From Lachnospiraceae bacterium (GTDB lineage: Bacteria > Bacillota > Clostridia > Lachnospirales > Lachnospiraceae): a DNA stretch of 37,631 bases. Shown here in pieces: positions 29,286-37,445 of this stretch. The translations under genes were made by a program, and so were the position numbers. The notes under the pieces were generated by a model that did not search any database, was not told where the DNA came from, and was given only the letters and a program-made list of their open reading frames with translations. How positions within the stretch are numbered: the stretch's first letter is position 1; each line of letters starts with the position of its first letter. The stretch lies in NCBI GenBank assembly GCA_017635395.1, contig JAGBLN010000021.1:1-37631 (forward strand). Direction: 5' to 3'.

Positions 29286-29756
29286 TCATAACAAGCCTTC
29301 AGCTTGCAGATATTTCCAAAATGCATCCAGCCCTTTGGTAAAATCAGCATAGGTCGCATCAAAATTCCCCGTATACCATGGATCTGCCACCTCCCTGCCT
29401 CTGCCAATCCCGGATACAAAATCCAAAAGCTTATATATCTTATCGGAGCGGCCTCCGGCTATACGCTGCATATTGCGGATATTAGCCGTATCCATTCCGA
29501 TCAGATAATCATAATAATCATAATCTTCATTTGTCATCTGCACTGCCCTGTGCGGCACGAGAGGGATCCCGACTTCCCGCAGCTTCTGTACGGTTCCGTA
29601 ATGCGGCGTATTCCCGATTTCCTCACGGCTTGTAGCCGCTGACTCTATCTCAAAGTCATCCTTCCTGTGATTTTTTTCAGCCATATAGGAAAACATGCTC
29701 TGAGCCATCGTGCTTCTACAGATATTGCCGTGGCAGATGAAAAGAACTTTTATCAT
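29286..29756 (-). CDS. Low-molecular-weight protein-tyrosine-phosphatase
   Basis: The 156 residues are the full family length. The P-loop CHGNICRS (C8-x5-R14) gives the nucleophile and the phosphate-binding Arg, and the general-acid loop DPWYTG starts at residue 125. It dephosphorylates phosphotyrosine, or phosphoarginine in some Firmicutes, in the cytosol. GAGGAGTAGTAATCG precedes the ATG. Its first ten codons recur three more times to the right, at 29930, 37246 and 37415. I interpret the gene as the integration target of the accessory island, with its start region supplied by the last integrated element. Confidence 0.93.
   Translation of the reverse strand: MIKVLFICHGNICRSTMAQSMFSYMAEKNHRKDDFEIESAATSREEIGNTPHYGTVQKLREVGIPLVPHRAVQMTNEDYDYYDYLIGMDTANIRNMQRIAGGRSDKIYKLLDFVSGIGRGREVADPWYTGNFDATYADFTKGLDAFWKYLQAEGLL
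29726..29756 (-). repeat. ptp-start repeat, copy 1 (intact gene start)
   Basis: The 31 bases are codons 1-10 plus one base of the phosphatase gene and encode MIKVLFICHG. It is the same length as copies 2-4 and shares TGCC at one end and the start codon at the other. It matches copy 3 at 27 of 31 bases and copy 2 at 24 of 31, counted by eye. Confidence 0.85.
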
Positions 29757-29877
29757 CGATTACTACTCCTCTTTTCTCTCTTTACGGTAGTCGGTTTCAT
29801 ACCGTTCAATCCGGCATGAAATCGCTGTTTTTCATAGTAGTCACCATGGTAGTCAGATACCTTTTGCCTGCAACGTT

Positions 29878-29894
29878 TTGCCGTACAATGCCGT
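29878..29894 (+). repeat. Junction module TTGCCGTANNATGCCGT, left copy
   Basis: TTGCCGTACAATGCCGT is followed by AATACTC and GTTTACAA, then by ptp-start copy 2. It differs from the right copy (37184-37200) at two central bases only. Within the module TGCCGTA recurs as ATGCCGT, a short direct repeat such as recombinase half-sites show. Confidence 0.55.
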
Positions 29895-29929
29895 AATACT
29901 CAAGGGTTTACAACCTTGTTAGGCTTGAA

Positions 29930-29960
29930 TGCCCCAGCAGACAAAAAGAACCTTAATCAT
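29930..29960 (-). repeat. ptp-start repeat, copy 2 (displaced start)
   Basis: The 31 bases encode MIKVLFVCWG behind GAGGAGTAAAAATAA and then run IQA and stop. The copy keeps a ribosome site and start codon but no gene, as expected for a displaced 5' end. It matches copy 4 at 26 of 31 bases. Confidence 0.8.
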
Positions 29961-30087
29961 TTATTTTTACTCCTCATCATCGCCCATCAATGCCGTGTTT
30001 TCGTCACTATTTTCAATGCTTCCGGCGCACTCACTCATAACGGCAACTCGGCATATCATGGCAAACTTTAGCAAAGAATTGCGACCA

Positions 30088-30142
30088 AATCGTAGTCGAT
30101 TTCGTAGTTATTACCGCAAAACAGACTACTGTGACTACGATT
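30088..30142. repeat. Inverted GTAGTC repeats at the 3' end of the HEPN gene
   Basis: Perfect 10-base arms AATCGTAGTC (30088-30097) and GACTACGATT (30133-30142) enclose CGTAGT and ACTACT in nested inverted order. It may act as a terminator-like hairpin for the HEPN gene. The same words recur around the other junction, which favours recombinase arm sites. Confidence 0.5.
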
Positions 30143-31634
30143 ATTCGACCACAGATTCTCCGCTTGGAACTTTTATATTCTTTTCTGGAAAACCAAGTGT
30201 ACCGTAATCCACATATTTTCCAGTATATCCTAACAAGGTTAGAACAGTCCGTGCAATAATACATTCATACACTTTACTGTACTTATATAGTTCAGAGTAA
30301 TCGCCACCCATTTCTCGAAAAGATCCATGTGCAGACAGATTTCGTGCTTGTAAGGCTTTTTTCTCTGTTTCGCCTATAGGCATACCGATTTTGTCAAAGA
30401 AATGCCATAGCATCTCATTAATAGTCATTCTGTTCATCAAATCGACAGAGCGTTGCATTCGATCAACATATTCAGTATCTTTGAACTGTTCTTTTACAAG
30501 ATCTTTTATCGGCTTTATTATATTCTTGAATTCCTTCTTTTCAATCAGAATAGTCTCCGGATTCAATTCTACCTGTTCATACCACTTTTTCATCAAATAC
30601 TCTAAAGAACCTGATAGCATTGGTAAATCATAAGGTTTGGCAATATTCTTTGCGTACCAATACGATCCGAAAAGAGCATTAAAATCCAACTTGTTATATA
30701 AATTTGCAAATTGATCTATGTATTTCTGAACAAAATCAAAATATGTTTGCAGAGAATCATATTTATCGCAAATTGGAGGCATAGCAGCATTCTTACATAT
30801 TCTTTCTATCTCAAAGCTGTATGTATTGGGCGATTCCATTTCAAACCCGAGCTGGTTACCGCTATCATCAAATGTGCTATTACCGATATACAGAAGTCTC
30901 GTACCTACAATAAAACTCAAATACTCTCTGATAATCGTTCGTTCTTCAAAACTTGGTATCCGCCCATACTTTTCAAAATATGAAATGCTTAAATTTTCGC
31001 TCCATTTAGGTCCATAACCATTTCCCACATAATGTACGTCAAAAGCCGTATCTTTGAATTTAAAATGAGCAAAGTGACCGACTGTCTCTTGTTCATCTTG
31101 TGTATCCTTCACTGGAAAGTCAAAATCACCGTGTTGACCAAGTAAAGTCCCCTCTACTGTGTATTTAAACTTCTGATTCGCACATACTCGAAGCCCACTT
31201 TGACCTCCGTTCAAAATCCATTCTTTTAATACAGTAGCTGGCTTTTCGGTGTATGTGCATTCAATATGATAACATGATAAATGATATTCCGAACTATCAA
31301 GTGTACTGACACAGCCGCTGTAGTAGCAAGGTGCAAACTTAAATGAATAAGCACTTCCAAAAGGTCTGACAATCAGCTCCCCCGGAATAACTGTTTCTCC
31401 AGCCACAAACTCTCGCTCTTTCTTTTTTCTTGAAGATCCTTGATCGTTGAAACGATTTATTTTCCGTGTGCAGGATACCTTTATGTCATATCGTTCATCT
31501 CGTGAAATATACAATTCATCCAATAACTCAATTGGCAACTCCTCTAAATTTTTTTCTTCCAGTTTCGAGTGTCCTTTAAAGATTAGGTTTCCAGAAGGTA
31601 TACTCTCCCACAGCAACGCTGCTAATCTATCCAT
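30141..31634 (-). CDS. ApeA-like HEPN-domain defence protein
   Basis: The 497 residues fit the ApeA family of anti-phage abortive-infection proteins: an N-terminal beta-rich ApeA domain (about 1-280, with ELPIELLDEL and an internal LSCYHIECTY) and a C-terminal helical HEPN domain. The HEPN RNase motif Rx4H is present as ARNLSAH, with Arg-431 and His-436 and a polar Asn right after the Arg, as in active HEPN RNases. The likely role is cleavage of RNA on infection. Assignment of the N-terminal domain is from memory. AAGGAGATAGG precedes the ATG. It has its own promoter after a terminator, so it can be expressed separately from the restriction genes. Confidence 0.7.
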   Translation of the reverse strand: MDRLAALLWESIPSGNLIFKGHSKLEEKNLEELPIELLDELYISRDERYDIKVSCTRKINRFNDQGSSRKKKEREFVAGETVIPGELIVRPFGSAYSFKFAPCYYSGCVSTLDSSEYHLSCYHIECTYTEKPATVLKEWILNGGQSGLRVCANQKFKYTVEGTLLGQHGDFDFPVKDTQDEQETVGHFAHFKFKDTAFDVHYVGNGYGPKWSENLSISYFEKYGRIPSFEERTIIREYLSFIVGTRLLYIGNSTFDDSGNQLGFEMESPNTYSFEIERICKNAAMPPICDKYDSLQTYFDFVQKYIDQFANLYNKLDFNALFGSYWYAKNIAKPYDLPMLSGSLEYLMKKWYEQVELNPETILIEKKEFKNIIKPIKDLVKEQFKDTEYVDRMQRSVDLMNRMTINEMLWHFFDKIGMPIGETEKKALQARNLSAHGSFREMGGDYSELYKYSKVYECIIARTVLTLLGYTGKYVDYGTLGFPEKNIKVPSGESVVE

Positions 31635-31665
31635 TTTCCTATCTCCTTGGCTATAGTATAAGAGT

Positions 31666-31694
31666 ATTATAGTTTAAGCGTCTTTCTTAATAAA
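31666..31694 (-). promoter_or_regulatory. Promoter of the HEPN gene
   Basis: On the minus strand a perfect -10 TATAAT (31666-31671) is present; the -35 region (TTTATT, 31689-31694, 17-bp spacing) is poor. Transcription would start about 24 bases ahead of the ATG. Confidence 0.4.
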
Positions 31695-31730
31695 GTGTTT
31701 ATAGCGGTTGTTATTATATTTATATATAGG

Positions 31731-31775
31731 AAAAGGGGCTGTCGCTTTAGTTGAGTACTTTAGTGCGACTGCCCC
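31731..31775 (-). terminator. Terminator of the restriction operon
   Basis: On the minus strand GGGGCAGTCGC pairs with GCGACAGCCCC (one mismatch), followed by TTTTCC, 15 bases after the stop of the DUF6173-like gene. It separates the restriction operon from the HEPN gene. Confidence 0.75.
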
Positions 31776-31789
31776 AATCCTTGAGAAAA

Positions 31790-32170
31790 CTACTCTTCTG
31801 TAATAAATCCGATTTTTCTCTTGGGCTTGTCTGGTTCTTTTGAAACCTTTGTAAGCAAAAAGTTTAATTGGTTTATGTGTTGGATAAGAACCGACTCTTG
31901 TCCATTTACAAATCCTTTAAATATTATCAGAACTGGATCCCTATATGATATGTATGTAACCTGCATAAGAACAGATTGCCCGAAATTCGTCATCATAATT
32001 CCAACTTCATGTTCAGAATCGAGCGACTCCTCATATTCCTGTATTTGTTCTTTCAGTATTTCGAACTGCGTATCCGCCCACATGTGTTGTGACGGAACAT
32101 ACATGTTTTCAATATCCGGCATCTTTAAATCTTGTATTACTTTACTTAGATCAAGCCCATAATTCTGCAT
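31790..32170 (-). CDS. DUF6173-like small protein
   Basis: The 126-residue soluble protein has an N-terminal helical part (LKEQIQEYEESLDSEHEVG) and a compact beta part: VGIMMTNFGQSVLMQVTYIS, then DPVLIIFKGFVNGQESVLIQ and HINQLNFLLTKV. That pattern agrees with my memory of the DUF6173 family, whose function is unknown. AAAGGAACCG precedes the ATG. It starts 24 bases after the zinc-ribbon/deoxyribosyltransferase-like gene and ends the operon. It may be a partner or immunity/sensor subunit of that protein; this is inference from position alone. Confidence 0.6.
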   Translation of the reverse strand: MQNYGLDLSKVIQDLKMPDIENMYVPSQHMWADTQFEILKEQIQEYEESLDSEHEVGIMMTNFGQSVLMQVTYISYRDPVLIIFKGFVNGQESVLIQHINQLNFLLTKVSKEPDKPKRKIGFITEE

Positions 32171-32194
32171 TTTCGGTTCCTTTCTTTCAAAATA

Positions 32195-33232
32195 TCAATC
32201 TATTGTGGCTCGTATTCTATTTGTAAGCCGTTCAGAAATGTCTTCTTCAGTTTCCCACATAATTGTGTTCTTCTGAGCAATATCAAAATGAAGACTAACA
32301 TCTTTTCTGCACAACTGAATAACTTGCTTGCCCAGTCCCATTGCATATCCTTCCTCAAAATATGCGCCATTATTCTGATGCGTCAAATCTACCACAACAA
32401 ATTTGCTGTCTCTAATATGCTTCAATAATTCTGGGGTGATGAAATCATTATGCTGAACTTCATCGATAAAAACTGCGTAATAATATGCATCTGATATTCC
32501 CTTTCGTATAGCCTCTCTCAACTTGGCAGTATCATCGCCAAACTTCATCGCAACAAGAACGCTTCTACCGTATGAAGAATTTTTCTGTAACTCATCTACC
32601 CTTTGATACCCAAGAGGAGTCAGGCAGATTGTTGTCATATCCTTCGTTGTAGCAGCCTCTTGGCATTCGATCAGATTCGACTTTTTCAGATAATCTAACA
32701 TATATCGAATCTCTTCAATACACTCCTTTTCATCTCGCTCTACGGCATTATTGATCTTATTTCCGTATTTTTTATTATCAATATCATAGCGATCAACAAA
32801 TAGAACTCCCATCAAGGTCGGAAGTGATATCTGTATTTTTTGTCCCAGATGCTTGGCATGTGAATCAATGTATAAAAGAATACTGTCAACTTTTTCCGCA
32901 AGGGATCTAGGATACCATGAGTTCACAATATCGGCATCCATATGAACAGGGAGACCACAAATATTATGACCACTCTGAAATTCCTTTTTATATCTGTCGC
33001 ATTCTTCTTTATCTAATACAGTGTTATATCGGTATTCAGACCAGTCGCTCTGCTTGTATGAATGATAAACCAAATAAGCCGTCAGGTGGTTCATATTAAA
33101 CCCTTCTGTTCCACTGAATTCGTTTAATTCGAACCTACCACAAACAGGGCACTCATAGAAATTCATCATCCGATTTCCATCAAACTGATGAGACGCTTTT
33201 GACTTACATACCGGGCATTCACAATCATTCAT
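32195..33232 (-). CDS. Zinc-ribbon protein with C-terminal deoxyribosyltransferase/TIR-like domain
   Basis: The 345 residues begin with a zinc ribbon (CPVC at 6-9 and CPVC at 28-31). A mainly helical middle, with a winged-helix-like part near 150-215 (TICLTPLGYQRVDEL), follows. The C-terminal domain (about 223-310) has SVLVAMKFGDD, a central FVVVDLTHQNN and FEEGYAMGLGKQVIQL. The last segment matches the nucleoside 2-deoxyribosyltransferase/TIR-like fold, with the expected catalytic Glu at 293 or 294. Proteins of this fold serve as nucleotide- or NAD-degrading effectors in defence. No nuclease motif is seen. It follows the second methyltransferase by 37 bases in a defence operon. Confidence 0.62.
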   Translation of the reverse strand: MNDCECPVCKSKASHQFDGNRMMNFYECPVCGRFELNEFSGTEGFNMNHLTAYLVYHSYKQSDWSEYRYNTVLDKEECDRYKKEFQSGHNICGLPVHMDADIVNSWYPRSLAEKVDSILLYIDSHAKHLGQKIQISLPTLMGVLFVDRYDIDNKKYGNKINNAVERDEKECIEEIRYMLDYLKKSNLIECQEAATTKDMTTICLTPLGYQRVDELQKNSSYGRSVLVAMKFGDDTAKLREAIRKGISDAYYYAVFIDEVQHNDFITPELLKHIRDSKFVVVDLTHQNNGAYFEEGYAMGLGKQVIQLCRKDVSLHFDIAQKNTIMWETEEDISERLTNRIRATID

Positions 33233-33269
33233 AATAAGTGTTTCCTTTCAATCACCCGATATTTCGGAT

Positions 33270-34238
33270 TTATACTTCCGCCAATTCGCTACATACCGAA
33301 TTAGCAACATACCAAAACATTACTGGAGGTATTGCATTACCCAAAGCTCTATATTGAGCAGATTCGCTTCCGACCAACTTAAACTTTTCCGGAAAGCTTT
33401 GAATCCTTGCAACTTCTCTCGGAGTAAATCTTCTATAACGTTCGCCTTCCATCAACACCGGATCCGTACTGTTAAGCGATACTTTGGCCAAATGCGCACC
33501 TACAGTGTTGCAGGGCTTTGTAATATCCTGTGCGCGGCCTTTATTCATCGATTCACGATTTTTCATCATTCCTTGAACGGCTTTTTCGCTGAAAAAATAC
33601 TTTTCATCAACATTTTTTTCAAGAACCGAGCTTAAAGGCTGATACAAATCCTCCTGTGAATAAATCACATCAGGGAATGTAAAGTCGATATGCAAATCCT
33701 TCCTAAAGCCAACAATGATGACCCTTTCTCTTTTTTGTGGCACACCATACTCTGCAGAATTCAGAATCTGGTATTTCACATCATATCCACTTTTTTCAAA
33801 TTCCTCCATGATAAGAGGGAATGCGCTACGTTTATTTGCAGTTAGTAAGCCTTTAACATTTTCGGCAATAAAACACTTCGGCTGCTTATCTCTTAGTATC
33901 CTACACATTTCAAAGAACAGTTTTCCACGTTCATCCTTTACCCCCAATCTTTTAGGATTCTGGGCGATTATCGAAAAAGATTGGCATGGAAATCCGCCAG
34001 TTAGTATGTCGAAATCCGGCAATTCTTCCGAACTCACCTCTCGAATGTCACGATTATCCGGTTTAATTCCAAAGTTAGTTTCGAAGATACTGCATGCATT
34101 GTCATCAATATCATTGGCATACACTATCTCCATGTTGTTCTTTTCATATTTTTTTCCCAGAAACTCAAAGTCTCCAAGCAATCCCACATCGGTTCCACCG
34201 CATCCGCAGAATAATGATGCTACTCTTAATTTTTCCAT
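33270..34238 (-). CDS. DNA cytosine-5 methyltransferase (second of the locus)
   Basis: The 322 residues have all the key m5C methyltransferase motifs: SLFCGCGGTDVG (motif I, SAM binding), GGFPCQSFS with catalytic Cys-85 (motif IV), ENVKG (126-130, motif VI), QKRER (168-172, motif VIII) and RALGNAIPP near the C-terminus (motif X). The target-recognition region between motifs VIII and IX is short (about 90 residues). The ATG lies inside the last codons of the DUF3883 gene (13-base overlap) with GAGGAG upstream, so the two are coupled. It should protect one strand of the restriction site. Confidence 0.93.
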   Translation of the reverse strand: MEKLRVASLFCGCGGTDVGLLGDFEFLGKKYEKNNMEIVYANDIDDNACSIFETNFGIKPDNRDIREVSSEELPDFDILTGGFPCQSFSIIAQNPKRLGVKDERGKLFFEMCRILRDKQPKCFIAENVKGLLTANKRSAFPLIMEEFEKSGYDVKYQILNSAEYGVPQKRERVIIVGFRKDLHIDFTFPDVIYSQEDLYQPLSSVLEKNVDEKYFFSEKAVQGMMKNRESMNKGRAQDITKPCNTVGAHLAKVSLNSTDPVLMEGERYRRFTPREVARIQSFPEKFKLVGSESAQYRALGNAIPPVMFWYVANSVCSELAEV

Positions 34239-35689
34239 GTTAACAACTCCTCAAATGTTCCGACCTTTGTTGGATCAAATGTAATATCTGCTCCATCACT
34301 GGGAATCATTTCTATCTGATCATTCTTATACAAGCCGACCGGATCTTGAAGCAAAAACAGTTTTCGTTCATTCTTACTAAGCAGCAATCTATACACATAA
34401 TACCTATCATGCGTACTGCTCGCAGTATTCCACTCATTCTTCGTCATATGAATTCTGTTGAAATGAAGAGGCTTTGAACTAATCGTTGTTTTTACTTCAA
34501 TATATCGTTTACGTTCATCCAACTCCACAGAACTGATGTCGTATCCAACAGCAAACTGTGTAGGTATTCTCTTTATAAGATGAATAAGATCTTCACGGCC
34601 TCCAATTTTAACTCGCATACATTCATGTCCGTGAACAAGGCTCTCCCCAATATCTCCGATATCTTTCGTTGTAAAAGCATCTATATAGGTTGCAATTCGC
34701 TTTTCAAGAACATCATCTCGGTCGATAAGATCACTGATACCTCCGATACTCTCGGTGGTCGTACTCTCTTGCAGTTGTTTTAGTTCGTCCTCATCACTTG
34801 CAATATATGCAAGAATATCTGTTGAGAAATCCGTGTTCTTTATATCTCGATTAACATATGAGAACCATCCATTCGTGCAGTCCTTAACCGCCTCCATACT
34901 ACCAGAGCGGTTGGAAATCATAGTGTCATACTCGGAGAACCATTCTGCCGATTCGATAAACTTAATAATGGCTTCCTCTTCAAGAGTGTTCAAGTAATAT
35001 GTCCTGCTGTCATATGTTTTAAGAAGGTTGGCTATCTCCATATAATCGATGATATCGCCAGCATACCTTACAACATCTCCCGTTTGATCATACTCTAATC
35101 TGTTTTTTCTGTTTTCAGCGATTCTGTTCCAGGTCTTCTCAACGCCCTCGTTATCCCTTGTTACTCTTAGATCGTTAAAAACACAGTGGCATATTTCCGG
35201 TTTTGTAATACCTATAGAATTTCCGCCGTCCTTGTTTGCGTACTTTAATAATTTGAGAATAAACTGCGCAGGTTTAAAATGGACTCCTGCCTCAATCTGC
35301 TCAAGTACATTCTTGGGTTTTATATGTGCACCAGGATACTGAAAATTATAAAGAAAGACCTTAAAGCATTCTACGAGATCACTGTCTTTCGCCAATTCAA
35401 TAGCACGTCTTCCCGGCTTGTCAGTTGTATCTGTATGCTCGATAAACCCAAAAAGAGCAGAAATCTCCGTGCGCCAATTATTGATTGTCTTCAACTCACG
35501 ATGAGCATTTCCCGGATAAAGATAAATCGCATTATTTATCTCACGCACAAACTCATCAACTGGTTTTTCTCCAACACGAGTAATTTCTTCAGCCATATAG
35601 ATAAGCACATTTTCTATATCCCCCTTAAATCTCGGTCTCACATGATGTATACGGAAGTAATACTCTTCAGGAATCTTATACTCACTCAT
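34226..35689 (-). CDS. DUF3883-type PD-(D/E)XK protein, probable restriction endonuclease
   Basis: The start is ATG 35687-35689 (MSEYKIPEEYYF); the frame reaches 35755 but only through the conserved end of the methyltransferase. The 487 residues have an N-terminal part with no recognised motif. A DUF3883-like domain near 340-450 holds GYDISSVELD and YIEVKTT, giving Asp-384 and the E-V-K triad at 398-400 that marks PD-(D/E)XK nucleases. HFNRIHMTKNEWNTA follows, where DUF3883 proteins place their conserved Glu. Lying between two m5C methyltransferases, it is most likely the cognate endonuclease. Its start is 1 base after the first methyltransferase stop. Confidence 0.75.
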   Translation of the reverse strand: MSEYKIPEEYYFRIHHVRPRFKGDIENVLIYMAEEITRVGEKPVDEFVREINNAIYLYPGNAHRELKTINNWRTEISALFGFIEHTDTTDKPGRRAIELAKDSDLVECFKVFLYNFQYPGAHIKPKNVLEQIEAGVHFKPAQFILKLLKYANKDGGNSIGITKPEICHCVFNDLRVTRDNEGVEKTWNRIAENRKNRLEYDQTGDVVRYAGDIIDYMEIANLLKTYDSRTYYLNTLEEEAIIKFIESAEWFSEYDTMISNRSGSMEAVKDCTNGWFSYVNRDIKNTDFSTDILAYIASDEDELKQLQESTTTESIGGISDLIDRDDVLEKRIATYIDAFTTKDIGDIGESLVHGHECMRVKIGGREDLIHLIKRIPTQFAVGYDISSVELDERKRYIEVKTTISSKPLHFNRIHMTKNEWNTASSTHDRYYVYRLLLSKNERKLFLLQDPVGLYKNDQIEMIPSDGADITFDPTKVGTFEELLTWKN

Positions 35690-35690
35690 C

Positions 35691-36728
35691 TTAATCACCC
35701 AATTGTTCCTTAAGCGCCTTAGCAATCGCCTCTGCAAGCAGTGGGGGAACAGCATTTCCGACTTGTCTAAACTGTTGCGTCTTATTACCTAAAAAGATAA
35801 AATCATCCGGAAAAGATTGTAATCTTGCACACTCTCTTACGGTAGGCACACGGTTATACTTATAATGAAAGTGATGCCTATGCCCTGTATCAATAGTCGG
35901 GGCAGGTTTATCGCTTGCAAAACGTGTCCATGCCACATGGAAATTTCTGGAATTAATGTATTCGTCCGGCAAATCTTTATAGTTCCCACCATCTGGCACT
36001 AACGAAATAATCTTTTTTACTTTATCCGAATGAGATGCAGCCACATGATTTCTAACCTCTTTTGAGTTTGCTCTCATCAACTTTTGATACGGATTATGAG
36101 GTTTTGAAATGTAATCAGCATGTTCGGTTCCCAACTCATCTTCCAAAGCAGGTAGATCATCAAGCGCCATACTACATGTAACTTTTTCCTTCAAGGGTTC
36201 TGGGTAGGAGAATTCTCCATTTTTCATGCCCACGAAAACTACCCTTTTTCTGTTTTGAGGCACACCATAATCTGCTGCGCATAAAATCTTGTATTGGATG
36301 GTGTATCCCATAGAGGTAAACTTTTCGATTATACTGTCCTTAATCTGTCCTCCGAACAATCCTACTAAGCCGGGCACGTTTTCTATAACGAAGGCGGTCG
36401 GCTGTATTTCTTGAACTAATCTGATATATGATAAATATAATTTGTTTCGAGGATCATCAAACTTTCTGGGGCCGGATAACGACATGCCCTGGCACGGCGG
36501 TCCCCCGATAATAACATCTATTTTCTTGTCCCCGATTAAGGGCTTTATATCATTTTCATATGTAATCTTGGTAATATCCCCACATATGGATTTTGATCCC
36601 TTATGGTTCAACTCGAACGTTTCTAAAGCTTTTGCATCATTATCTATTCCAAGTAACACATCAAATCCGGCTCTTTCGAATCCGTATGATAATCCGCCTG
36701 CTCCGGAAAACAAATCAATAACATTCAT
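35691..36728 (-). CDS. DNA cytosine-5 methyltransferase (first of the locus)
   Basis: The 345 residues show DLFSGAGGLSYGF (motif I), GGPPCQGMS with catalytic Cys-79 (motif IV), ENVPG (116-120, motif VI), QNRKR (158-162, motif VIII) and QVGNAVPP near the end (motif X). The target-recognition region is clearly longer and different from that of the second methyltransferase, so the two should recognise different strands or sequences. AAGGAG precedes the ATG, which overlaps the HTH gene stop by 4 bases. Confidence 0.95.
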   Translation of the reverse strand: MNVIDLFSGAGGLSYGFERAGFDVLLGIDNDAKALETFELNHKGSKSICGDITKITYENDIKPLIGDKKIDVIIGGPPCQGMSLSGPRKFDDPRNKLYLSYIRLVQEIQPTAFVIENVPGLVGLFGGQIKDSIIEKFTSMGYTIQYKILCAADYGVPQNRKRVVFVGMKNGEFSYPEPLKEKVTCSMALDDLPALEDELGTEHADYISKPHNPYQKLMRANSKEVRNHVAASHSDKVKKIISLVPDGGNYKDLPDEYINSRNFHVAWTRFASDKPAPTIDTGHRHHFHYKYNRVPTVRECARLQSFPDDFIFLGNKTQQFRQVGNAVPPLLAEAIAKALKEQLGD

Positions 36729-36907
36729 TTAGCTTTACACTCCTTGGTCTTTCTCGGATCTTGAGGCTTTTCGGAATTTTCCGGAATAGCCCATGCATCT
36801 CCAAGCTTAAAGACCCCTTTTATTCTCTCTTCAGCGCAAAAGATCTGTACTCTTCGCTGTGAAATACCCCATTTTTTTGCCGCTTGGCTGGCTGTCATAT
36901 ATTTCAT
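36725..36907 (-). CDS. Small helix-turn-helix regulator of the restriction operon
   Basis: The 60-residue protein is almost entirely a MerR/excisionase-like HTH (residues about 4-45): MTASQAAKKWGISQRRVQ followed by a wing ending GDAWAIPEN, then a basic tail. Such proteins often precede methyltransferase genes in Firmicute islands. It may act as a controller protein or as an excisionase-like factor. GAGGAC lies 7 bases before the ATG. The promoter upstream carries a perfect inverted repeat in its spacer, a plausible binding site. It overlaps the methyltransferase gene by ATGA. Confidence 0.8.
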   Translation of the reverse strand: MKYMTASQAAKKWGISQRRVQIFCAEERIKGVFKLGDAWAIPENSEKPQDPRKTKECKAK

Positions 36908-36944
36908 TTACATGTCCTCAAAAAGCAAACAACAATACTATATA

Positions 36945-36973
36945 ATTATATTCGACGGGGCGAATACTTTCAA
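36945..36973 (-). promoter_or_regulatory. Consensus promoter of the restriction operon with operator in the spacer
   Basis: On the minus strand, -35 TTGAAA (36968-36973), 17-bp spacer and perfect -10 TATAAT (36945-36950). Inside and overlapping the -10, TATTCG and CGAATA (36949-36966 on plus) form a perfect 6-bp inverted repeat with 6-base centre. A repressor there would block RNA polymerase. Confidence 0.75.
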
Positions 36974-37063
36974 GGACTTCACAATATTATTTTTTTAATT
37001 CCTTAATTTTCCCTTTTCAATTATTCTAATTATATCACCCTATAAGTCCAAAAAAACGGACAC

Positions 37064-37094
37064 AAAAAGCCATCCTGAAATAATCCAGAATGGC
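37064..37094 (-). terminator. Terminator upstream of the restriction operon
   Basis: On the minus strand GCCATTCTG pairs with CAGGATGGC (one G-U) around an 8-base loop and is followed by TTTTT. It would stop transcripts entering from the right and insulate the operon promoter. Confidence 0.7.
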
Positions 37095-37183
37095 GAATTA
37101 TAAGCCAATTAGTAGTCTCGGTTTGCCCGGTATTAGCAAACAGAACCACATCGTAGCCTCTATCGTAGTAATGTCCGATGCTC

Positions 37184-37200
37184 TTGCCGTATTATGCCGT
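37184..37200 (+). repeat. Junction module TTGCCGTANNATGCCGT, right copy
   Basis: TTGCCGTATTATGCCGT is followed by GAATAATC and GTTTACAA and then by ptp-start copy 3, the same order as at 29878-29894. It matches the left copy at 15 of 17 bases. Confidence 0.55.
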
Positions 37201-37245
37201 GAATAATCCCTTGTTTACAAGGTTTGCCTTGTGATTAGTGTGTCC

Positions 37246-37276
37246 TGCCGTGGCAGATGAAAAGTATCTTGATCAT
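37246..37276 (-). repeat. ptp-start repeat, copy 3 (displaced start)
   Basis: The 31 bases encode MIKILFICHG behind AAGGAGCAATGATTCCA, then RTH and stop. The 18 bases at its inner end are identical to copy 1. Confidence 0.82.
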
Positions 37277-37414
37277 TGGAATCATTGCTCCTTATATGTA
37301 CTCATTTTTGCGATTTTTCAGCGTTGATGCGAAGGTGCAAACGGGGTGCAAAATCACTGCGCAAGCGCCTTCAAAGCCTGTATCTACAAGTTTTCCGACA
37401 TTTAGTCGGCGGAG

Positions 37415-37445
37415 TGCCCCAGCAGACGAAAAGAACTCTTGTCAT
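37415..37445 (-). repeat. ptp-start repeat, copy 4 (displaced start)
   Basis: The 31 bases encode MTRVLFVCWG, then continue about 14 codons to a stop with no phosphatase similarity. A GAGGAC sequence lies upstream but at long distance. It shares the TGCCCCAGCAGAC end with copy 2. Confidence 0.78.

Follow-up and report, generated by a model that had tools for sequence, protein, structure and literature searches.

The start of a phosphatase gene as a probable attachment site for Tn916/Tn1549-type integrases in Lachnospiraceae

Four copies of the ptp start

The window analysed here is the entire 37,631 bp contig JAGBLN010000021.1 (C10) of the draft genome of a Lachnospiraceae bacterium (G000; assembly GCA_017635395.1; 72.6% complete, 58 contigs). 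Its minus strand carries an intact gene for a low-molecular-weight (LMW) protein-tyrosine-phosphatase (ptp), and the first 31 bp of this gene recur upstream of it, in the same orientation, until the contig ends only 186 bp past the outermost copy. We argue below that the gene start is very probably a site at which mobile elements, here named E1, E2 and E3, have integrated repeatedly. The gene and the four copies are as follows.

29286..29756, minus strand: LMW protein-tyrosine-phosphatase gene (ptp), intact, putative target (PF01451, E = 1.6e-30)
29726..29756, minus strand: copy 1, current ptp start, putative right junction of E1 (repeat comparison, shuffles)
29930..29960, minus strand: copy 2, putative E2/E1 junction, start followed by a stop after 13 codons (repeat comparison, shuffles)
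37246..37276, minus strand: copy 3, putative E3/E2 junction, start with a GGAG site, stop after 13 codons (repeat comparison, shuffles)
37415..37445, minus strand: copy 4, putative displaced start, outermost (repeat comparison, shuffles)

The copies agree pairwise at 21 to 27 of their 31 bases. A 19-base pattern drawn from them, with one mismatch allowed, occurs four times in the window; 100 dinucleotide shuffles contained it 0.03 times on average and never more than once. This excludes chance and confirms the four same-orientation copies at the coordinates reported in the initial annotation of this DNA. Only copy 1 runs on into the phosphatase open reading frame (ORF). The frame read from copies 2 and 3 closes after 13 codons and that from copy 4 after 24; the earlier description of all three as stopping within a few codons is apt for the first two and loose for the last. 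GGAG-type ribosome sites can be read by eye 5′ of copies 1, 2 and 3, in line with those already claimed for copies 2 and 3, and the division of the copies by their inner end stands as described (ICHG in copies 1 and 3, VCWG in copies 2 and 4).

Judged from the sequence, the copies are best read as the attachment sites of three tandem elements at ptp codons 1–10, in the order E3, E2, E1 towards the gene. The start-to-start spacing is 169 bp between copies 4 and 3 (E3), 7316 bp between copies 3 and 2 (E2) and 204 bp between copies 2 and 1 (E1). No ORF of at least 90 aa lies wholly inside E1 or E3. The elements and the ends of E2 are listed here; the end classes and profiles are described further on.

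29757..29929, minus strand: E1, putative gene-less mini-element, 204 bp start to start, class-B left end (leftB profile)
29961..37245, minus strand: E2, putative 7.3 kb element with restriction–modification cargo (domain scans, end profiles; no PF00589 on contig C10)
37277..37414, minus strand: E3, putative gene-less mini-element, 169 bp start to start, class-A left end, TTTGCACC arm words (leftA profile)
29979..30110, minus strand: E2 right end, with GTAGT / ACTAC / GACTACGA arm words and TTTGCC-like repeats (rightB profile, E = 1.2e-8)
37149..37232, minus strand: E2 left end, class B (leftB profile, E = 2.7e-4; E = 0.54 with the wider leftB2 set)

Homology breaks at codon 1 and the site recurs across the family

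Phosphatases 92–97% identical to that of the window were found in three records (L056, L057 and L058, the last being Lachnospiraceae AB2028), all of which align to the window across ptp and the genes downstream of it. Upstream sequence amounts to 672 bp in L056 and 10 kb in L058; both alignments set in at ptp codon 1, and before that point only the repeat itself matches the window. L057, with only 23 bp upstream, 15 of which align, is uninformative on the breakpoint. AB2028 also has a displaced ptp start 5.6 kb upstream. The end of homology at codon 1 supports the central claim of the initial annotation, namely that repeated integration at codons 1–10 replaced the start of the gene and pushed the old one outward. 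In the comparison with relatives that the annotation had proposed as a check, the flanks of L056 and L058 change at codon 1, and no empty site came to light.

At least 153 of 299 family genomes contain the site pattern, and at least 55 of the 299 contain it more than once (the window's genome included; this multi-copy count was read by eye from the result table and then summed). The reversed pattern gave 11 matches in 10 of the 299 genomes, among the matches listed, or about 0.04 per genome. Of 20 stretches fetched, picked mostly for several site copies, 17 include one or more displaced copies in which the similarity runs as far as GGCA and is lost beyond it. A stricter pattern was applied to 40 named genomes chosen from 80 named loci (L056–L135): it is present in 34, has an extra copy in 14 and is found reversed in none. 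When the extra copy shares a contig with ptp it lies upstream on the same strand (6 of 6 genomes), and none of the 80 loci, within the stretch fetched, showed a copy on the opposite strand or on the downstream side of ptp. This one-sidedness again agrees with the integration claim. Differences between left and right copies (compared without G268, G222, G189 and G253) number 25, 10 and 69 at the three codon positions (one-sided binomial p = 6e-12, with pairs that are not fully independent); because they concentrate at third positions, the copies look like former working gene starts.

Three further observations concern these loci. The copies of Gallibacter intestinalis (L141, at 2263 and 17567) have 20 identical upstream bases in common, as if one element type had integrated twice in turn. 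In L118 (3557–3700), where the start of ptp itself has drifted, a site copy 112 bp upstream of the gene possibly marks another gene-less mini-element. Finally, in 51 of the 80 loci the contig breaks off less than 9.5 kb before ptp on the upstream side, against 19 on the downstream side, and the upstream sequence is 500 bp or less in 14; the locus may be a systematic assembly breakpoint.

An integrase lineage at the site

The initial annotation also proposed collecting ptp-start fragments beside recombinase genes. A whole or partial ORF of a Tn916/Tn1549-type integrase ends 130–321 bp upstream of ptp in 36 of the 80 loci. The integrase of L037 contains PF02920 and PF00589 and matches the Tn1549 integrase structure (PDB entry 6EMY; E = 4.7e-78) and the Tn916 DNA-binding domain (PDB entry 1B69; E = 1.3e-17). 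Both Pfam domains are also present in the integrases of L049, L098, L216 and L220, and the truncated ORF of L040 has PF00589 only. By these domain and structure matches, the recombinase type at the ptp site is a Tn916/Tn1549-like tyrosine integrase.

Because most loci had been fetched via ptp, an integrase search blind to ptp gives the fairer count. Run on 80 family genomes, it returned 30 loci and 27 ORFs of at least 200 aa, among the matches listed. The site lies within 700 bp downstream of 11 of the 12 ORFs scoring above 378 bits, compared with 1 of the 15 lower-scoring ORFs, two of which had less than 300 bp to inspect. Beside the sixteenth-best ORF (L182) the site has drifted and agrees at 18 of 21 positions, and no site was found at two Tn1545-type plasmid integrases (L196 and L197).

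In an integrase tree, 2 changes account for 39 rows with the site and 17 others, where shuffling requires 14.8 on average, and a single grouping of the site rows is not rejected (p-AU 0.70); this tree was made without integrases shorter than 375 aa, L077, L184 and duplicates, and with L091 and L182 counted as site rows. A second tree, with the viral-contig integrases added and also without L177 and L091, places 43 site rows on one side of a branch with a support of 90 (L177 falls on the site side in the first tree). As far as these trees can tell, the integrases at the ptp site group together.

Two unusual frames occur beside the site. In Mediterraneibacter glycyrrhizinilyticus (L091, 9317–10477), the C-terminal part of an integrase and the phosphatase lie in one 386-aa frame (matches at 2–160 and 231–354), which could be translated as a fusion. 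In L077 (4079–5326), a frame directly after a displaced start combines an integrase-like stretch (33–78) with an IS66-type transposase (53–387), the two matches overlapping.

Element ends beside the copies

Read by eye, the sequence between integrase and ptp contains element-specific arm-type word repeats, ATGCC/TTGCC repeats, a CTTG..CAAG-like palindrome, a ribosome site and the ATG, and much of the same layout can be made out, again by eye, in E1, E2 and E3. We built end profiles from other genomes only and with the 31-bp repeat excluded. The class-unsplit profiles leave aside the window's elements, L077 and G253; the remaining 21 were split, after inspection of the alignment, into class A (13) and class B (4), the last 4 entering the leftB2 set only.

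The leftA profile has its best window match at 37400–37309 (E = 1.2e-5), beside copy 4, at the left end of E3. The leftB profile matches at 29908–29833 (E = 2.8e-5), beside copy 2, at the left end of E1, and at 37232–37149 beside copy 3, at the left end of E2, with the E values listed above. The best match of the rightB profile, at 30110–29979, lies before copy 2 at the right end of E2, an end that the unsplit right profile also finds (E = 3e-7). E2 is thus bounded by attachment-type ends on both sides by profile, and the matches beside copies 2, 3 and 4 bear out the integration claim. A right-end profile trained on 26 of the 36 integrase loci was applied to 46 others with at least 200 bp upstream, 10 of which have an adjoining integrase ORF. 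It reaches 10 bits or more in 28 of the 46 held-out loci, compared with none of 144 control upstream regions, and does so in 18 of the 36 held-out loci that have no adjoining integrase ORF.

Mobilizable, viral and integrase-less carriers

The L087 locus of a Blautia has a MobA/MobL relaxase near its integrase, and the element is therefore taken to be mobilizable. In a viral collection the site was matched 10 times on 9 contigs (L218 and L221 being near-identical), each time with a right-end profile match directly upstream (E ≤ 0.0041). Of the viral contigs, L216 and L220 each encode an endolysin and, upstream of the site, a complete Tn916-type integrase. A portal gene and an integrase are present on L218 and L221, and terminase and portal genes together with integrase fragments on L222; L219 has integrase fragments and class-B ends. 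On the 49.7 kb contig IMGVR_UViG_2910649936_000001 (L219 and L223), ptp and a displaced ptp start lie towards opposite ends, separated by about 47.6 kb. By gene content, the occupants of the site elsewhere include a mobilizable element and prophages.

Elements of 1.6–7.3 kb without an integrase ORF, meaning that no integrase ORF of at least 80 aa was found with integrase queries, are common in the fetched arrays. One of them, in the G038 array, has a right end that still includes the final codons of an integrase frame, and this C-terminal remnant is a sign of decay. When 20 proteins from ORFs picked by eye in 11 integrase-less elements were scanned, without a background control, seven of the elements gave matches to defence or candidate-defence systems (E ≤ 1.8e-10): Gabija, RT-Toprim, type IIG twice, Lamassu-like with PDC-S02, AbiH and PDC-S01. 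No defence match was found in the scanned elements of G108, G268, G191a and G191b; the scan left out G189, L115, L127 and AB2028.

Repeated integration as the preferred explanation

Taken together, these data make it very likely that a lineage of Tn916/Tn1549-type integrases uses ptp codons 1–10 as its attachment site and that the tandem E3–E2–E1 array arose by repeated integration. We propose the following course of events. The target would be the KVLF[IV]C[HW]G strand (codons 1–10), which leads into the active-site loop of the phosphatase, and the integrases would be carried, in Lachnospiraceae and neighbouring families, by a mobilizable element and by prophages. On integration, the body of ptp would be fused to the right end of an element, which would supply arm sites, a ribosome site, the ATG and some ten in-frame codons. 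The gene would stay functional with a borrowed start, and the old start would be left at the left end of the element, running into a stop. Repetition would yield tandem arrays, in the window E3, E2, E1 and ptp from the outside in, with the outermost copy probably the oldest. E1–E3 would be decayed or dependent elements that have kept their ends and are moved by an integrase acting in trans. No tyrosine integrase (PF00589) lies on the window contig, the genome's four matches (one below the cut-off) being on other contigs; E1–E3 therefore probably either move by means of an integrase in trans or have stopped moving. The sequences show directly the repeats, the left ends of E1–E3 and the right end of E2, the use of the site across genomes, and the type and grouping of the integrases; the integration reaction, the movement in trans, the sequence of insertions and whether any element is still mobile are what we infer from them.

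Several observations weigh against this explanation. Chance, a paralogue or an unrelated gene may lie behind a copy in some of the 55 multi-copy genomes. No site is within reach of the integrase of L177, a member of the lineage, nor was one found at the truncated integrase of L040. No integrase of this lineage was found in G000, at its 72.6% completeness, or in G299, G300 and G301, where the best matches have 28–35% identity over most of the protein; with such distant integrases only, there is no named donor for the trans step here. A search for an empty site via the outer flank of the array in Anaerostipes MSJ-23 (G243) found none in 11 genomes of the genus; the flank has long matches in two other genomes, in one of which (G352) it lies about 100 kb from the nearest site-like match. 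The 186-bp outer flank of the window gave only chance-level matches (E = 0.28) among the fetched loci. As for the ends, the two classes were drawn with the alignment already in view, the unsplit left profile finds the E3 end only (E = 0.013), and the wider leftB2 set is weaker at the left ends of both E1 (E = 0.0019) and E2 (E = 0.54). The right ends of E1 and E3 are placed by position and matched by no profile, 18 of the 46 held-out loci fall below 10 bits, and the right-end profile finds nothing in AB2028, a close relative that does have a displaced start.

Alternative explanations

We may wonder whether E2 and similar integrase-less elements are phage satellites that use the class-B ends and integrase of a helper prophage and whose cargo excludes rival phages. 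This is compatible with repeated integration at the ptp start, from which it departs only as to the carrier of E2, and is, as an addition to it, rather unlikely. Class-B ends are indeed present on viral contigs that carry a Tn916-type integrase, complete on L216 and L220 and in fragments on L219 and L222; three of these contigs (L216, L220 and L222) have the endolysin, portal or terminase genes described above, and a profile made from five viral-contig right ends (four contigs) matches the right end of E2 (E = 5.9e-6). Against it, no packaging, capsid or replication match was found in the scanned E2 proteins (Pfam and PADLOC, three also with NCBIfam; PHROGs not run), and the common ends may reflect a common integrase lineage only.

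That the arrays formed and spread mainly by homologous recombination at the 31-bp starts and shared flanks, through duplications, deletions and the swapping of cassettes, with integrases active only in the distant past, we consider improbable. The lack of a tyrosine integrase on the contig would suit it, and gene-less units could result from deletion, but the copies match at only 21–27 of 31 bases, which is short for such exchange, the flanks of L056 and L058 diverge from the same base, integrase ORFs adjoin ptp in many loci and arm-site ends lie beside the copies. A role of the displaced starts as upstream reading frames or leader peptides, kept for the regulation of the island genes or of ptp, might be read into the ribosome sites and short open frames at copies 2 and 3; it is very improbable given that the sequence past GGCA differs between elements and that in many genomes the DNA adjoining such copies upstream of ptp is dissimilar. 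Mis-assembly of metagenomic contigs at the repeat, which a draft-genome contig and the short flanking sequence (upstream in 51 and downstream in 19 of the 80 loci) could suggest, is scarcely credible when the same arrangement is found on long contigs of isolate records (Lachnospiraceae AB2028, Anaerostipes MSJ-23 and Gallibacter intestinalis).

Cargo of E2

The seven E2 ORFs scanned are listed below; beside the methyltransferases and the BpuJI-like nuclease they include others that look defence-like. None matched an integrase or relaxase (Pfam and PADLOC; serine recombinases were not searched genome-wide).

30141..31634, minus strand: 497-aa protein, weak Apea-like HEPN match (PF18739, E = 0.038, under the curated cut-off)
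31790..32170, minus strand: DUF6173 protein (PF19670, E = 6.7e-20)
32195..33232, minus strand: protein with a C-terminus like a TIR effector / nucleoside deoxyribosyltransferase (PDLC00733, E = 3.6e-10; PF05014, E = 3.4e-4, under the cut-off)
33270..34238, minus strand: C5 cytosine methyltransferase (PF00145, E = 1.3e-78)
34226..35755, minus strand: restriction endonuclease with BpuJI_N and NOV_C domains (PF11564, E = 9.4e-106; PF13020, E = 1.8e-13)
35691..36728, minus strand: C5 cytosine methyltransferase (PF00145, E = 3.8e-81)
36728..36907, minus strand: small helix-turn-helix protein (PF12728, E = 3.2e-4, under the cut-off)

The nuclease (34226–35755) joins a BpuJI-type N-terminal domain to a NOV_C domain. 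Relatives of it occur in at least four other genomes of the 299, and around them, in stretches of 7.7–19.9 kb, we found no site copy within 4 mismatches and no end-profile match at E ≤ 0.05. Nuclease cargo of this type is therefore not tied to ptp elsewhere, and we rejected the nuclease as a marker of the site.

Relation to known systems

SXT integrates at the 5′ end of prfC. Streptococcal integrative and conjugative elements (ICEs) occupy the 5′ ends of ftsK, rbgA or ebfC, according to the available part of PMC4701971. The ptp site resembles both in combining a tyrosine integrase with the 5′ end of a housekeeping gene and differs from them in the gene used, and that part of the source describes no stacking at the ptp start. 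Among the best-ranked matches in the open-access literature we recognised no report of integration at the ptp start.

Tn916-type integrases are presented, in the available parts of PMC5871717 and PMC4701971, as promiscuous, with a preference for AT-rich targets and without flanking repeats. The ptp-site integrases share the Tn916 DNA-binding and catalytic domains and match Tn1549 integrase structures. Unlike what those parts of the sources describe, they adjoin a single gene start, where repeats reach 31 bp, and the specificity seen is not low: 11 of the 12 high-scoring integrases from the ptp-blind search have the ptp site downstream. E2 itself has no integrase or conjugation genes of its own, unlike an ICE of the Tn916 family.

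The closest likeness is to the tandem composite islands of Streptococcus salivarius, which comprise cis-mobilizable elements (CIMEs) of 1.2–13 kb and gene-less microCIMEs of 130–220 bp (PMC7563491, available part), so that tandem islands with gene-less elements of this size are already known. Like these, the ptp array consists of tandem, integrase-less elements at one gene; E2, at 7.3 kb and with attachment-type ends on both sides, is in the CIME range and has no recombination or mobilization match in its scanned ORFs, and E1 and E3 (204 and 169 bp, gene-less) are of microCIME size. As far as the available text of PMC7563491 goes, the S. salivarius islands sit at the 3′ ends of rpmG, rpsI, fda and rplL, with the most decayed elements always farthest from the target, whereas the ptp array is at a 5′ end and has the gene-less E1 nearest to its target; and in contrast to the CIMEs described there, relatives of the class-B ends here include prophages. 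For an origin of CIMEs by deletion from ICEs or integrative and mobilizable elements, the L087 relaxase and the G038 integrase remnant are what we observed, yet the integrase-bearing class-B relatives are prophage-like.

We put forward, tentatively and as a possibility somewhat short of being our expectation, that the ptp start is a family-wide docking port at which a promiscuous integrase family has turned strictly specific. It would be used by mobilizable elements, prophages and small integrase-less defence elements moving in trans, and the translation start of ptp would be a horizontally exchanged module, re-set at each integration, since each element would bring its own ribosome site and first ten codons. 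The finding gives a simple sequence rule: mobile elements, defence islands and prophages in Lachnospiraceae and their relatives could be found and delimited by following the sequence upstream of the ptp start until another KVLFICHG fragment is reached. Site-specific and promiscuous integrases of the Tn916 type would form a natural pair for studying the evolution of target choice, and the expression of a conserved phosphatase may be re-set by the element that arrived most recently.

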